Source: a virus. Taken from it: DNA of 22,714 nucleotides. Position 1 is the stretch's first letter. The number at the start of each line of letters is the position of its first letter. Under the pieces are notes generated by a model. The model had not been told where the DNA came from. It ran no database searches and saw nothing but the letters and a program-made list of their open reading frames with translations. The stretch spans positions 1 through 22,714 of the IMG/VR virus record IMGVR_UViG_3300051212_001269; one strand, given 5' to 3'. Position numbers and translations under genes: made by a program. Below, in pieces: positions 5,721-15,683 of the stretch.

Positions 5721-5749
5721 ATTATAACGAAATAAAAACTACTTGTCAA
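5721..5749 (-). promoter_or_regulatory. Sigma70-type promoter for tRNA-Thr
   Basis: TTGACA (5744-5749), 17 bases, TATAAT (5721-5726), minus strand: an exact consensus. The -35 box is made of the last sense codons of the HNH gene (CTT GAC AAG). Confidence 0.8.
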
Positions 5750-6335
5750 GAGAACGGTGGTAATCTTTTTTTGCCCGTTCTCTTCTTTCTACTCTACCAT
5801 TTCCCATATTTTTTCCCTTATATGTGGGAGTTTGAGAATGGCAATTGGGACATAACAGAGAAAGATTAGTTTTAGAATTATTGTAAGCATTTCCATCAAT
5901 ATGCTCCAATTCCAAAACTATTGGTTTATTCATCCAATCAGTAATCCCACAATTCCAACATCCAGACTTTTGTTCGGACAAATATCTTTTTATCAAAGTT
6001 TTTCCTGGATATATTCCAGCATCTTCCCACATAGAAAGACTTACTTGATTTTTATTTTTAGATTGACATTTTGCTCCACAATATGTAGAGTTTTTTGATT
6101 TACATTCAACTCCACATACTATACATTTTGGTTTTGCCTTTGCCTTTTTTTTGTTATTATAAGAAGCAGAGCAACTAGAAGAGCAAAAAACATTTATATT
6201 TCTTTTTTCATATGGCACTACTCCATTACATTCTTTACAATATTTTGGAGAATTTAAATATTTTTCCAAATATTTTTGTTTATGTTTTTCTCCCCATTCC
6301 AACATTGCTTCTTTATGTTTATTAGAAGTGCCCAT
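5739..6335 (-). CDS. HNH homing endonuclease with zinc fingers
   Basis: 198 aa. The N-terminal half has three Cys-rich fingers (CKEC...CSSSC, CIVC...CGAKC, CWNC), the first followed by SASYNNKK. The C-terminal half has the HNH nuclease core: LELEHIDGNAYNNSKTNLSL, then LCPNCHSQTPTYKGKN, i.e. the catalytic His of EHID, the central Asn and the distal HxxxP-like segment, with a structural zinc pair. Such free-standing enzymes nick or cut near their insertion point and spread by homing. It lies between tRNA-Asn and tRNA-Thr and has its own late promoter. The N-terminal finger resembles that of the second HNH gene at 6871-7341, suggesting common origin. It is markedly A/T-rich. Confidence 0.92.
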   Translation of the reverse strand: MGTSNKHKEAMLEWGEKHKQKYLEKYLNSPKYCKECNGVVPYEKRNINVFCSSSCSASYNNKKKAKAKPKCIVCGVECKSKNSTYCGAKCQSKNKNQVSLSMWEDAGIYPGKTLIKRYLSEQKSGCWNCGITDWMNKPIVLELEHIDGNAYNNSKTNLSLLCPNCHSQTPTYKGKNMGNGRVERRERAKKDYHRSLDK

Positions 6336-6677: not shown

Positions 6678-6707
6678 TTGTTTACTCCTGTGCTGTATGT
6701 TGTGTGT

Positions 6708-6779
6708 ACCGCTGGTCGGGAATCGAACCCGAACTCCAAGTGCATTGTCTGCCTGTCCTGACCACTAGACTACCAACGG
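6708..6779 (-). tRNA. tRNA, isotype undetermined (odd anticodon arm)
   Basis: The frame of a tRNA is clear on the minus strand. The acceptor is CCGTTGG/CCAGCGG, discriminator T; the D-arm is GTCT-AGTGGTCA-GGAC; the T-arm is TCGGG-TTCGATT-CCCGA; total 72 nt. The 17 bases where the anticodon arm should be (GGCAGACAATGCACTTG) do not pair as a 5-bp stem and give no U33. The D-arm looks most like Glu/Asp tRNAs. A shifted reading could expose GCA, but the stem would be only 2-3 bp. Confidence 0.65.
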
Positions 6780-6845
6780 TGTGATGGAGTAAGTGTGATA
6801 TATCTCATAAGGATATAACAGGGACTTACCCTCTATCAGTTTTAT

Positions 6846-9204: not shown

Positions 9205-9870
9205 TTAGACATCAGCAAGAACCAATCGTTTAGCATAGTCGTGAGCATATTGTGTTCTTGCTCCATGGTGTCCCCATCCTATCCACTGATATGCATAATT
9301 CATATACCTATCAATAGATTTTCCAGAAACTCTCATTCTGTTTTCAATACTCTTCCATTGTGGTTCAGTAGTAATATACCGAAGTTGAGTATCAGCAGTA
9401 GAAGGATTACCTCCTATTTTTTTAGCAAAAGCACCCAGTCCATAATAACGAGAAGCAGAAGTAAATTGTATCAAACCATAACCTCTTCCACAATTATAGT
9501 ATGAGGTTCTGCTACCACCTTCGCAAATATTAGGAACAAAAGTAGATTCCTGTTTAATATTGCCCATGATGGTAGCAAGGGCGTTTCTGTCTTTAATACC
9601 ACGATCCTGGAAAAATGCCAGGGTAACATTTTCGTGTTCATTACACCCTTTACAAATTAGCCTTTTTTCTTTTGGCTTTGGTGGTGCAACCTCGCGGATT
9701 GCTGTCTTCTTTTCATCTACAAGGTCAAACTCTTTAATAACTGAGAAAGGTGCTTGTCCAGGAACTGGAGGAGGCGGACCTTGCATCTTGTAGTTGACGA
9801 ATGGCAGTGATGCCGTACTGGTTGTAACCGTTGCCAAGAGAGGCAGGGCTACTGTAAAGATAGATTGCAT
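9205..9870 (-). CDS. Secreted phage tail-lysozyme-like peptidoglycan hydrolase
   Basis: 221 aa. A hydrophobic N-terminus (MQSIFTVALPLLATVTTSTA) looks like a signal or signal-anchor. A Pro-rich linker follows (QGPPPPVPGQAP, APPKPKEKR), then a catalytic domain from about residue 80: NALATIMGNIKQESTFVPNI (a glutamate in KQES), GRGYGLIQFTSASRYYGL and YAYQWIGWGHHGARTQ. This order matches the lysozyme-like fold of phage tail lysozymes (Phage_lysozyme2 type), which cleave glycan strands. It could open the cell wall at infection or at lysis. A GIY-YIG gene has inserted at its 3' end, and the last 23 codons appear replaced. Its promoter and a possible attenuator lie at 9969-10040. Confidence 0.8.
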   Translation of the reverse strand: MQSIFTVALPLLATVTTSTASLPFVNYKMQGPPPPVPGQAPFSVIKEFDLVDEKKTAIREVAPPKPKEKRLICKGCNEHENVTLAFFQDRGIKDRNALATIMGNIKQESTFVPNICEGGSRTSYYNCGRGYGLIQFTSASRYYGLGAFAKKIGGNPSTADTQLRYITTEPQWKSIENRMRVSGKSIDRYMNYAYQWIGWGHHGARTQYAHDYAKRLVLADV

Positions 9871-10621: not shown

Positions 10622-11116
10622 TCAGGAAGACCAAAGTTTACCTTCTGCAACTCTTCTCCTCTTCAATCCCACTTCTACACTTGTTCCTGGATTATGGTAA
10701 AGATATAAAGCATCAGGAACTTTGGACCATTCCTTATTCCTAAGAACTCGGGTTATGGTATTAAAATTGGCAGACCCGTAGAAACGAGCACCAAGATTAT
10801 AAGCAAAAGATAGCAGAGCTCCTTGTTGATTTTCATTCATCTCACTCCAGTAGGGAATACTTTGAAGTGATGGAAGAAATCTATGTCTCAAATCAAACTC
10901 TAAGAGAGTATCAGCATATTTTTGAGTGATGACTCTTCCAAGTTTAAAGAAATTTCCATCAAAATCTCTAGTACTTCCCCATCCAATTGTAATCGGAAGT
11001 CCACCAGTTAGTGGGTCTGGATAAGCATTCAAATGACATCCTTCAAATTCTTTTATAAGTTCTACTCCTTTTACAGATACATCACTTTTGGTTGAACTGG
11101 GAGTAGAACTTTCTAC
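10622..11116 (-). CDS. GH24 lysozyme domain, probably made as a -1 frameshift fusion
   Basis: The frame encodes a T4-lysozyme-like (GH24) muramidase: VKGVELIKEFEGCHLNAYPD, then LTGGLPITIGWGST, with the catalytic Glu in EFEG and the Asp/Thr of the beta region, later MNENQQGALLSFAYNLGARF. No ATG, GTG or TTG precedes the catalytic Glu; the only canonical start in frame, TTG at 11030-11032, would delete it. The frame opens exactly at the A AAA AAG slippery site at the end of the upstream C39-like gene, one base back from its frame. A -1 shift gives 164 residues after ...DAKK, for a fusion of about 393 aa. An AGGAG followed by ATA is the weaker alternative start. Confidence 0.75.
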   Translation of the reverse strand, partial: VESSTPSSTKSDVSVKGVELIKEFEGCHLNAYPDPLTGGLPITIGWGSTRDFDGNFFKLGRVITQKYADTLLEFDLRHRFLPSLQSIPYWSEMNENQQGALLSFAYNLGARFYGSANFNTITRVLRNKEWSKVPDALYLYHNPGTSVEVGLKRRRVAEGKLWSS

Positions 11117-11122
11117 TTTTTT
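11057..11122 (-). promoter_or_regulatory. Programmed -1 frameshift cassette
   Basis: On the minus strand: slippery heptamer A AAA AAG (11116-11122), immediate TAG stop (11113-11115), then a perfect 12-bp stem AAGTTCTACTCC/GGAGTAGAACTT (11100-11111 and 11057-11068) with a 31-base loop. A GGGGAAG about 12 bases before the heptamer could act as an internal Shine-Dalgarno stimulator. These are the three elements of the E. coli dnaX frameshift signal. The -1 frame is the lysozyme frame. Confidence 0.7.
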
Positions 11123-11802
11123 GCATCAAAAATTCTTCCCCAACCAGTCTTATCCTTTCCTCTTTCTAACCAACGATAAGTCAAATCTGACTTCTTATAT
11201 ACTGCACCCTTGCCATTTGTTACAGGTCCAGTATAACCATCGTTCAGAGAACCATAAGGATCATTGACAACATAATCTTCACCCCTCTTACCAATAACTA
11301 CAACCATGTGCCCACCAGTAGGTGCAGATAAAGTACCCCTATGATAAATACCAATAACAACAGGCCTCCCAGCGGATAACTCACGATCAAGATCAGCAAA
11401 CCCAAGATTGTAACTAAATCGTGACTTAATACCATAATTCTCCAGAACTTTTGTCTGGACGGTGTGATCAGTTGAATCACCGATCGCAAATACTTTTTGA
11501 ACATAGGCATCATCGCCCTTTGCTCCTTGAAGAGTACCTGGTTTAAAATACTCTAAACACATTGCACAAGCAGATGAATTACATGTTCTTTGTGCATCTC
11601 TGTAATTATCTGTCTGTGGATAATAAGGAACAGGCAAAACTCCAGGAACAGTTGGTTTTGTTCTATAAATTTTTACCCAATTAGAACTATCATCAAGTAG
11701 AGGAGAATCCTTAAGATCTACTTCCAGTTGTTCAACTGCAGCAACATGTTTAGGATTCTTTGGATCATAATATTGAAAAAAGTTATGAAGATCAATTTTC
11801 AT
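11113..11802 (-). CDS. C39-like cysteine peptidase (cell-wall hydrolase candidate)
   Basis: 229 aa in the zero frame. VPYYPQTDNYRDAQRTCNSS starts the peptidase_C39_2-like fold, with Gln63 and Cys74 as the likely oxyanion and nucleophile positions. TGGHMVVVIGKRGEDYVVND supplies the catalytic His, then Asp (VNDPYG). In phages this fold occurs in endolysins that cut peptidoglycan peptides. The first 50 residues are a separate helical segment. The gene ends in GCA AAA AAG TAG, a -1 slippery stop leading into the lysozyme frame, so the full product may be a two-domain enzyme cutting both peptide and glycan bonds. A late-like AATAAATA lies upstream. Confidence 0.82.
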   Translation of the reverse strand: MKIDLHNFFQYYDPKNPKHVAAVEQLEVDLKDSPLLDDSSNWVKIYRTKPTVPGVLPVPYYPQTDNYRDAQRTCNSSACAMCLEYFKPGTLQGAKGDDAYVQKVFAIGDSTDHTVQTKVLENYGIKSRFSYNLGFADLDRELSAGRPVVIGIYHRGTLSAPTGGHMVVVIGKRGEDYVVNDPYGSLNDGYTGPVTNGKGAVYKKSDLTYRWLERGKDKTGWGRIFDAKK

Positions 11803-14138: not shown

Positions 14139-15683
14139 TCACTTACCAGGAAGTGCCTTTACCCCAAGTTTTTTATTGCGAGCAGCATCATTTTGTCTTG
14201 CTTTTTGAAGTGCTTGCTGTGCTTTTGCAGCATCATGCTTCTTGTATGCACCTGCAAACATAGTTCTTCCAATTCTTTCTAATGGATTAGAAGAAGTTTT
14301 AGCAAGAGATTGAGCACTTGGCCCTGCCTTATAAACTGCTTTACCATCCTTAAACGCAAGATGTCCTGCTGTTGATTGCCCACCTCTTTGAACTACACCA
14401 GTTTTAGCAAGTTGAACAGTTTTTCTTTGTGATCCAGAACCAGTTGACATAAATGCAGGACCACCTGGTTTTTTCTGACTAAATGATGTTTGTCCACCAA
14501 TACCTTTAATAGCAGTTCCTGCTTGCTTTTGACGATTTGCTGTTGCCATTGCTTTTCTTTCAACCGCATTAGCACCAGCAGCAACATCAAATGCCTTAGA
14601 TGCTGCAATTGATCCTGCTGTTGCGCCACCAATTGATCCAACTGGACCAGCAATGCTACCAGCAGCACCACCTAAAGCGCCGCCAGCAGCGACTGTAGCA
14701 CCTTTGGCAAGTGATCTCAACAAACCAGAACCCTTCGCTCTTTCATCAGCAACATCAAGTGCTGCTGCTGCAGGTCCAAGAAGTTTTCCACCGATTCTTC
14801 CAGCTCGTTTAAGTCCTGATGGAATTTTAATTTTTGGTCCAGTAGGTGGTTTTCCTCCAGTTTGTCCAACCGCAGGAAGTGCTGGTGGTTTTCCTCCAGA
14901 ACCTCCAGAAGATGTTCTGGGTGTAGACGCTTTATCATATGCACCTCTCATCATAGCTTCTGGGGGTGCCTGTGGATTAGTTCCACGAGTTGCTAATTTG
15001 CCGGCAAGTTGCTTGGCATCGTATGCTGCTGCTCTTGCTTCTTTTGCTGCTGCTCTGTTTCTTCGCTCAGCTGCTTCAAGTTCTGGAGTAAATTCTCGCC
15101 TACCACGACTACTAGTTGATCCTGAAGCAGGTAAAGCAAGTCTTGAAGGAGTTCCAGAAAGTGTTCTGTTTCCATAAGGAACTCTACTTGAAGGTGGTTC
15201 TGGAGTTCCATATTTTTTTGGCGGGTTTCCAGGAAACTGTTGCCAAGCATCAGCAGCAGCTCCTGACGGTTTTCTTGCAGGACTTGCTACTGTAGTTGTT
15301 TTTCCTTGAGGACTTACTTCTGGTTGAGTTGTTTGAGATGCAATTTTATTAGTTTGCGAAACTTCTGGTGCTGCATTTGCCGATGCTCTTGCTCTTGCAC
15401 TTCTAATTGCAGGAGCTCCTGCAGATCCTCGCAATGGTTGTCTCTGTCTCCCTAAAGCAGAAGGACCACCTAATCTTTGCTTGCTTCTGTTTGGTAGACT
15501 ATTATATGTATCTCTATCTAATCTATCATCCAATCTTTTTAATGGATCATTATTACCTAAAGCAACTGATCCTGCAAGAGGGGTAGTTGCAGCTGCTAAT
15601 GCTGCTGCAGCTTCAAGATCTCTTTTCTTTTTTTCATCTTCATTCAAATATGACTCTTGCAAAAACTGACTAAAGGACTTCAT
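14139..15683 (-). CDS. Internal head protein candidate with a T4-like capsid-targeting N-terminus, 514 aa
   Basis: It begins MKSFSQFLQESYLNE, which follows the pattern of the T4 capsid-targeting sequence of internal proteins (MKTYQEFIAEA). In T4 that peptide directs proteins into the prohead and is cut by the gp21 protease. The remainder is Ala/Pro/Gly/Arg-rich and disordered, with a Gly-zipper hydrophobic patch around residues 325-370 (GGALGGAAGSIAGPVGSIGG) and a basic C-terminus (AQQALQKARQNDAARNKKLG). A late promoter lies upstream. It is probably packaged in the head and perhaps ejected with DNA; that is inference from the N-terminus and composition. Confidence 0.72.
   Translation of the reverse strand: MKSFSQFLQESYLNEDEKKKRDLEAAAALAAATTPLAGSVALGNNDPLKRLDDRLDRDTYNSLPNRSKQRLGGPSALGRQRQPLRGSAGAPAIRSARARASANAAPEVSQTNKIASQTTQPEVSPQGKTTTVASPARKPSGAAADAWQQFPGNPPKKYGTPEPPSSRVPYGNRTLSGTPSRLALPASGSTSSRGRREFTPELEAAERRNRAAAKEARAAAYDAKQLAGKLATRGTNPQAPPEAMMRGAYDKASTPRTSSGGSGGKPPALPAVGQTGGKPPTGPKIKIPSGLKRAGRIGGKLLGPAAAALDVADERAKGSGLLRSLAKGATVAAGGALGGAAGSIAGPVGSIGGATAGSIAASKAFDVAAGANAVERKAMATANRQKQAGTAIKGIGGQTSFSQKKPGGPAFMSTGSGSQRKTVQLAKTGVVQRGGQSTAGHLAFKDGKAVYKAGPSAQSLAKTSSNPLERIGRTMFAGAYKKHDAAKAQQALQKARQNDAARNKKLGVKALPGK

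Follow-up and report, generated by a model that had tools for sequence, protein, structure and literature searches.

A peptidase and a lysozyme in overlapping frames

The window analyzed here, a stretch of 22,714 nucleotides of viral DNA (IMG/VR record IMGVR_UViG_3300051212_001269), encodes on its minus strand a C39-like cysteine peptidase and a GH24 (T4-type) lysozyme whose frame is -1 relative to that of the peptidase (Table 1). The peptidase open reading frame ends with GAT GCA AAA AAG TAG, which includes the slippery heptamer A AAA AAG. A -1-frame TGA directly upstream of the heptamer and the 0-frame TAG confine any shift between the frames to 10 nt, and the heptamer lies inside this interval. 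According to the open reading frame lists, the lysozyme frame of the window has no ATG, GTG, or TTG upstream of the codon for the catalytic glutamate, and a restart codon is thus absent. The earliest such codon is a TTG at 11032; because it lies past the FEG glutamate, an ORF caller yields only a 136-amino-acid lysozyme remnant. All of the measurable details in the preliminary description were confirmed, including the peptidase end, the -1 lysozyme frame, the stretch without start codons, the phased heptamer, and a perfect stem downstream. Its statements that ORF calling would report a lysozyme truncated of its catalytic residue and that the products would be a 229-amino-acid peptidase and a fusion of about 393 amino acids also held, the latter as a predicted -1 translation of 229 plus 164 residues.

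Table 1. Features of the peptidase-lysozyme locus in the window
Feature	Position	Strand	Remarks
C39-like cysteine peptidase, 0 frame, 229 aa	11113..11802	-	stop TAG 11115-11113
GH24 (T4-type) lysozyme, -1 frame	10622..11125	-	open from 11125, stop 10624-10622
-1 fusion (inferred), 393 aa (229 + 164)	10622..11802	-	stop included
Slippery heptamer A AAA AAG, phase X XXY YYZ	11116..11122	-	
5' arm of 12-bp stem, 4 nt past heptamer	11100..11111	-	covariation
3' arm of 12-bp stem, coding Gly-Val-Glu-Leu at the start of the lysozyme domain	11057..11068	-	covariation
-1-frame TGA immediately 5' of heptamer	11126..11128	-	ORF list, junction comparison
GGGGAAG, Shine-Dalgarno-like, 12 nt 5' of heptamer	11135..11141	-	

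The sequence A AAA AAG occurs in the 0 frame three times in the about 5,700 codons of the main open reading frames of the window. The two other instances, at codon 63 of 5739-6335 (-) and codon 18 of 14139-15683 (-), are not at gene ends. A second wall-enzyme-like gene lies close by at 9205-9870 (-); it belongs to the Phage_lysozyme2 tail-lysozyme family (PHROG 512) and has a hydrophobic N terminus. A tRNA-His is predicted at 6706-6780 (-) with the anticodon ATG, where GTG is usual.

Both halves of the locus have recognizable domains. Pfam identified Peptidase_C39_2 (4.5e-12) in the peptidase frame and Phage_lysozyme (1.9e-20) in the lysozyme frame, and the PHROG 3617 profile is matched by the peptidase over positions 1-235 and by the lysozyme over positions 241-405. 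The two frames are therefore consecutive parts of one profile, which indicates that a family of such fused proteins occurs elsewhere. The motifs RTCNSS and GGH are present in nearly all of the peptidase homologs. The peptidase has the catalytic cysteine and histidine and the predicted fold expected of a C39-like (papain-fold) enzyme; a search of its sequence against the PDB gave no match, and the assignment rests on Pfam, the motifs, and a fold search in which its predicted structure matched the C39-like peptidase 3erv. The lysozyme half has the Glu-Asp-Thr catalytic arrangement of GH24 enzymes, and its predicted fold matched those of solved phage muramidases. For a related single-frame fusion (L127), the structure model contained two confident domains and a putatively disordered linker (residues 236-247) that includes the junction. 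Three rows from annotated records were left out of the input to structure prediction.

A family of 171 junctions

Scans of viral contigs and protein searches of isolate genomes recovered about 400 loci, which reduced to 171 distinct peptidase-lysozyme junctions (Table 2). A slippery heptamer is present in every adjacent -1 junction that lacks a restart at ATG or GTG; it is A AAA AAG in 112 cases and T TTT TTT in 3. Membership in the set of 112 presupposes the heptamer, and the fair figure is 115 of 115 among -1 junctions without an ATGA or GTGA-only explanation. The bin without ATG holds just two junctions that are free of a heptamer, one with a GTGA overlap (L214) and one in which a separate lysozyme gene begins at an ATG of its own (L162). 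The -1 frame contains an ATG elsewhere in 4 of the 112 and GTG or TTG codons in some. Loss of the heptamer with both frames kept and no start codon, which the preliminary description had named as a refuting observation, was not found; heptamer-free -1 neighbors begin with ATG or GTG. The single-ORF homologs that it had suggested looking for do exist, in ACG-2014f, in L127 and L128, and in 12 more junctions. The reference annotations of both S-PM2 and S-CAM7 give a 72-amino-acid lysin without an active site.

Table 2. Classes of the 171 distinct peptidase-lysozyme junctions
Class	Number	Members
-1, A AAA AAG, no ATGA restart	112	
-1, T TTT TTT	3	S-CAM7 and two contigs
-1, heptamer and ATGA restart	10	nine A AAA AAG, including S-SRM01; one A AAA AAA (L207)
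ATG start, no heptamer	22	
GTGA, no heptamer	1	
Separate genes	3	
In-frame fusion, no heptamer	12	
In-frame fusion and A AAA AAG	6	
In-frame fusion and A AAA AAA	2	

Sequence signals at the proposed frameshift site

Sites of the X XXY YYZ class are expected to have a heptamer phased to the 0 frame near its end, a -1 frame that is open across the site and encodes a conserved domain, and a 3' RNA structure at short spacing, and all three are met in the family, the last with covariation but with some clusters lacking a clear stem. In the 112 frameshift junctions, AAA AAG is present without exception, and the codon preceding it is GCA, GTA, ACA, ATA, or GAA, always with a final A. Elsewhere in the same genes, A-ending codons make up 39% of those for alanine and 29% of those for valine, and Lys-Lys is encoded by AAA AAG in 14 of 100 instances. 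Over codons -40 to +1 of the 112 sequences, the other degenerate positions use two to six codons, while the three heptamer codons use one per residue. The overlap between the 0 and -1 frames is usually 10-13 nt (100 of the 112 junctions have exactly 10 or 13 nt) and in every case encloses the heptamer.

The window stem is a perfect 12-bp helix with a 31-nt loop, and its score exceeds that of dinucleotide shuffles of the downstream 90 nt (z = 9.8). The fold of the whole region is only modestly above that of shuffled sequence (z = -1.6), too weak to serve as proof of a stem, and arm-swap and covariation tests were used instead. When the best stem beginning within 14 nt of the heptamer was compared with dinucleotide shuffles in 58 sequence clusters, the median z was 2.9, with p <= 0.05 in 38 clusters and a spacer of mostly 5-8 nt, compared with a median z of -0.95 for ATGA control loci. 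No significant stem was found by the same test in clusters having both the heptamer and ATGA, and the stem is weak or undetectable in some others (e.g., L147 and L325). Stems of unrelated sequence occupy the same place, including the GTTCTACTCC, GCCAACTAA, CAACACCAC, and CCCACTAC types. Pairing of each 5' arm with its own 3' region scored a mean of 23.4, versus 15.2 when the 3' region was taken from another cluster (z = 12.8). The 3' arm is also under protein constraint, as it encodes the conserved lysozyme start, and the swap test preserves that constraint. Within the GTTCTACTCC family, 92.5% of cells are paired, versus 35-50% with slid partners, and doubly changed cells number 20 versus 8.6 expected. 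Slippery site and stem are thus both kept across the family while the sequence of the stem varies with compensation, which answers the question of co-variation raised in the preliminary description.

That description had also set the GGGGAAG upstream of the heptamer beside the internal Shine-Dalgarno sequence of E. coli dnaX. The run is present, but the comparison does not support it as a specifically selected stimulator, since conserved Trp-Gly-Arg codons account for it; the GGGG 15 nt upstream of the heptamer is dictated by Trp-Gly. Runs of this kind occur in non-frameshift classes as well, and the next codon is AGA or AGG in 84 of 112 frameshift junctions, 20 of 22 ATGA junctions, and 0 of 18 in-frame fusions without A7.

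In Escherichia coli, A AAA AAG is shift prone because the sole lysine tRNA reads both codons (PMC5009743). The genome of Synechococcus SynAce01 encodes 44 tRNAs, of which one is a tRNA-Lys, with the anticodon TTT; phage S-PM2 encodes a further tRNA-Lys with the same anticodon, and no tRNA-Lys was found in the window. The dependence of dnaX-type cassettes on tRNA-Lys(UUU) as the only lysine tRNA is therefore satisfied in SynAce01 and likewise in S-PM2. The tRNA-Lys complement was checked fully in this one host genome only, and the host of the window's virus is inferred from relatives.

These signals bear on the possibility that RNA polymerase, rather than the ribosome, slips on the A run, so that mRNAs gain or lose bases and ordinary translation yields the fusion, as in Thermus dnaX. 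A run is present to slip on, S-CAM7 has eight T residues, and two in-frame fusions (L189 and L200) carry one more A, so the length of the run does change in evolution. However, the run is mostly just six A and is always terminated by G, whereas bacterial cases have been described on runs of about nine (PMC5009743). Polymerase slippage would need no covarying 3' stem and no exact phase relative to the ribosome, and with its single lysine tRNA the host meets the condition for efficient ribosomal slipping at A AAA AAG. We consider transcriptional slippage very improbable, though it is the strongest of the competing explanations.

Natural variants of the junction

Relatives in which the junction is built differently retain both enzymes and act as natural controls. 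At ATGA-restart junctions, the heptamer is absent in 22 of 32 and the stem is mostly absent; a restart (ATGA or GTGA) and the heptamer are negatively associated (Fisher p = 2e-19, kinship ignored). A tree-aware test of whether a start replaces the heptamer was consistent in direction, with 0 contrary pairs, but underpowered. A second explanation, translational coupling, would have ribosomes stop at the peptidase end and restart in the lysozyme frame, giving separate enzymes and no fusion. In its favor is the ATGA overlap of a minority of relatives, among them S-SRM01, which retains the heptamer. Coupling does not account for the window, which has no start codon upstream of the catalytic glutamate, or for a heptamer that is invariant where ATGA is missing and a stem that is gone where ATGA is present, as a restart requires no heptamer; coupling is accordingly rated slightly below polymerase slippage and very unlikely. 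Decay of the lysozyme after a one-base deletion, or a sequencing error, is refuted as an explanation: a one-base gain in the A run would indeed join the frames, as L189 and L200 illustrate, but there are 112 distinct junctions with large synonymous divergence, the isolate S-PM2 has the junction in two records (AJ630128 and LN828717), and the lysozyme frame is under purifying selection (pN/pS about 0.34) with the catalytic glutamate in 112 of 112.

In L127 and L128, the heptamer and stem are kept and one extra base lies behind the heptamer, so that the 0 frame reads the fusion and a -1 slip would meet TGA TAG two codons on. Their polarity is, as judged from the sequence, reversed and like that of dnaX tau/gamma. 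ACG-2014f (L159 and L165-167) shares this reversed layout, with a GGAGGG/CCCTCC hairpin; as it falls in the in-frame clade, this could be coincidence. L189 and L200, whose A run has seven residues, are in-frame fusions, and the L200 junction recurs in several contigs. The T TTT TTT pair of S-CAM7 is nested in the in-frame clade (SH-aLRT of the enclosing branch, 95), from which frameshifting between the two enzymes appears to have arisen twice, using different slippery sites, with S-CAM7 apparently having gained a putative U-type site of its own.

The separate lysozyme gene of DSL-LC03 (L162 3774-4442) opens with a second copy of the N-terminal segment of the peptidase (MARIDLHNFFKFYDERNPNH..), which suggests that this module is useful to the lysozyme too; by inference, frameshifting would supply it without a second copy. 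Another separate lysozyme gene (L163 4031-4702) likewise starts with a second copy (IDLHNFFKFYDE.. in both genes). ATGA-type lysozymes (L012 5680-5850, L140, L155, and similar) have a different N-terminal helical module (MSIKFIDAVKNH..QASVHKEILDEFARRYR), and the gene there therefore looks replaced, not merely restarted. S-CREM1 (L161 2506-3687) has a single open reading frame with the domain order reversed, lysozyme then peptidase (compare PHROG 10051). In Synechococcus phage S-CRM01 (L578 1421-1511), the lysozyme g113/g112 is divided between different frames midway through its GH24 domain, close to GAAAAAGATGG, and a transpeptidase-like HGCIRMHN domain lies at the end of the second part; either another frameshift or an error in the sequence could explain the break.

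Proposed mechanism and comparison with known systems

The preliminary description had proposed a dnaX-like -1 frameshift, and the comparison of junctions strongly supports this reading through the heptamer, the covarying stem, and the natural controls. We therefore favor dnaX-type programmed -1 ribosomal frameshifting within the endolysin gene, with a probability of about 0.92, although there are no protein, ribosome-profiling, or reporter data. Ribosomes translating the peptidase would in part be slowed at A AAA AAG by the stem just ahead and would slip back one base onto AAA AAA, since the sole lysine tRNA (UUU) re-pairs there at least as well. Ribosomes that do not slip would terminate at TAG and release the 229-amino-acid peptidase, and those that do would continue through the GH24 lysozyme, giving a 393-amino-acid fusion. 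The outcome would be two wall-cleaving proteins with a common N terminus. The signal, its conservation, and its covariation are observed; slippage, its rate, and the action of both proteins in lysis are inferred, as are the two proteins themselves and the set ratio at which they were proposed to be made. It is conceivable, but remains a tentative idea that we would not favor on present evidence, that selection acts on a constant, roughly equal proportion of peptidase and fusion, probably serving a mixed complex or sequential action; the switch of polarity in L127/L128, and perhaps ACG-2014f, would fit about 50% slipping, and S-CAM7 would have reached its U-type site by convergence.

The best-known cases of programmed frameshifting in tailed phages are in tail-assembly and capsid genes, and in tail-assembly chaperones of the lambda G/GT type a -1 slip near the gene end appends a second domain. 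In contrast, the gene here is not a tail gene, and the appended part is the second catalytic domain of an endolysin. The closest parallel is E. coli dnaX (tau/gamma), which shares with the cyanophage lysin A AAA AAG, a 3' stem a few nucleotides on, a sole tRNA-Lys(UUU), and two products with the same N terminus, the longer having an extra C-terminal domain. The gene and its function differ, an internal Shine-Dalgarno sequence is not supported in the lysin, and the main polarity is opposite, as the shift yields the long product in the cyanophage and the short one in E. coli dnaX; the latter polarity is found in L127/L128 and ACG-2014f. Bacterial dnaX genes of either polarity have been described (PMC5009743). 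Two-polypeptide endolysins of phages with Gram-positive hosts likewise produce a long and a short polypeptide from one gene, but there an internal start gives a short C-terminal product (PMC9430671), whereas the proposed short product of the cyanophages is the enzyme at the N terminus and would arise from ordinary termination. That internal-start type is not met here, as the window has no start before the catalytic glutamate and the frames differ.

The PRFect paper (PMC10885494) names lysins among genes with known frameshifts, citing a 1994 lactococcal paper on a lysin gene said to involve overlapping frames. We found no description of frameshifting in the endolysins of cyanophages in the literature searched. 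Although -1 frameshifting itself is already known, that literature yielded no example of it in a two-enzyme endolysin, of a family with both polarities, or of a second slippery site.

A lysis gene of myoviruses infecting Synechococcus, a common aquatic cyanobacterium, thus appears to use frameshifting, on the basis of more than 100 distinct environmental sequences and the reference isolate S-PM2. Existing annotation splits the gene, often truncating the lysozyme, and surveys of phage lytic enzymes miss the architecture. Because in-frame fusion, restart, reversed polarity, and another slippery site supply natural controls both ways, the family is well suited to studying why a phage would fix the proportion of its two products.
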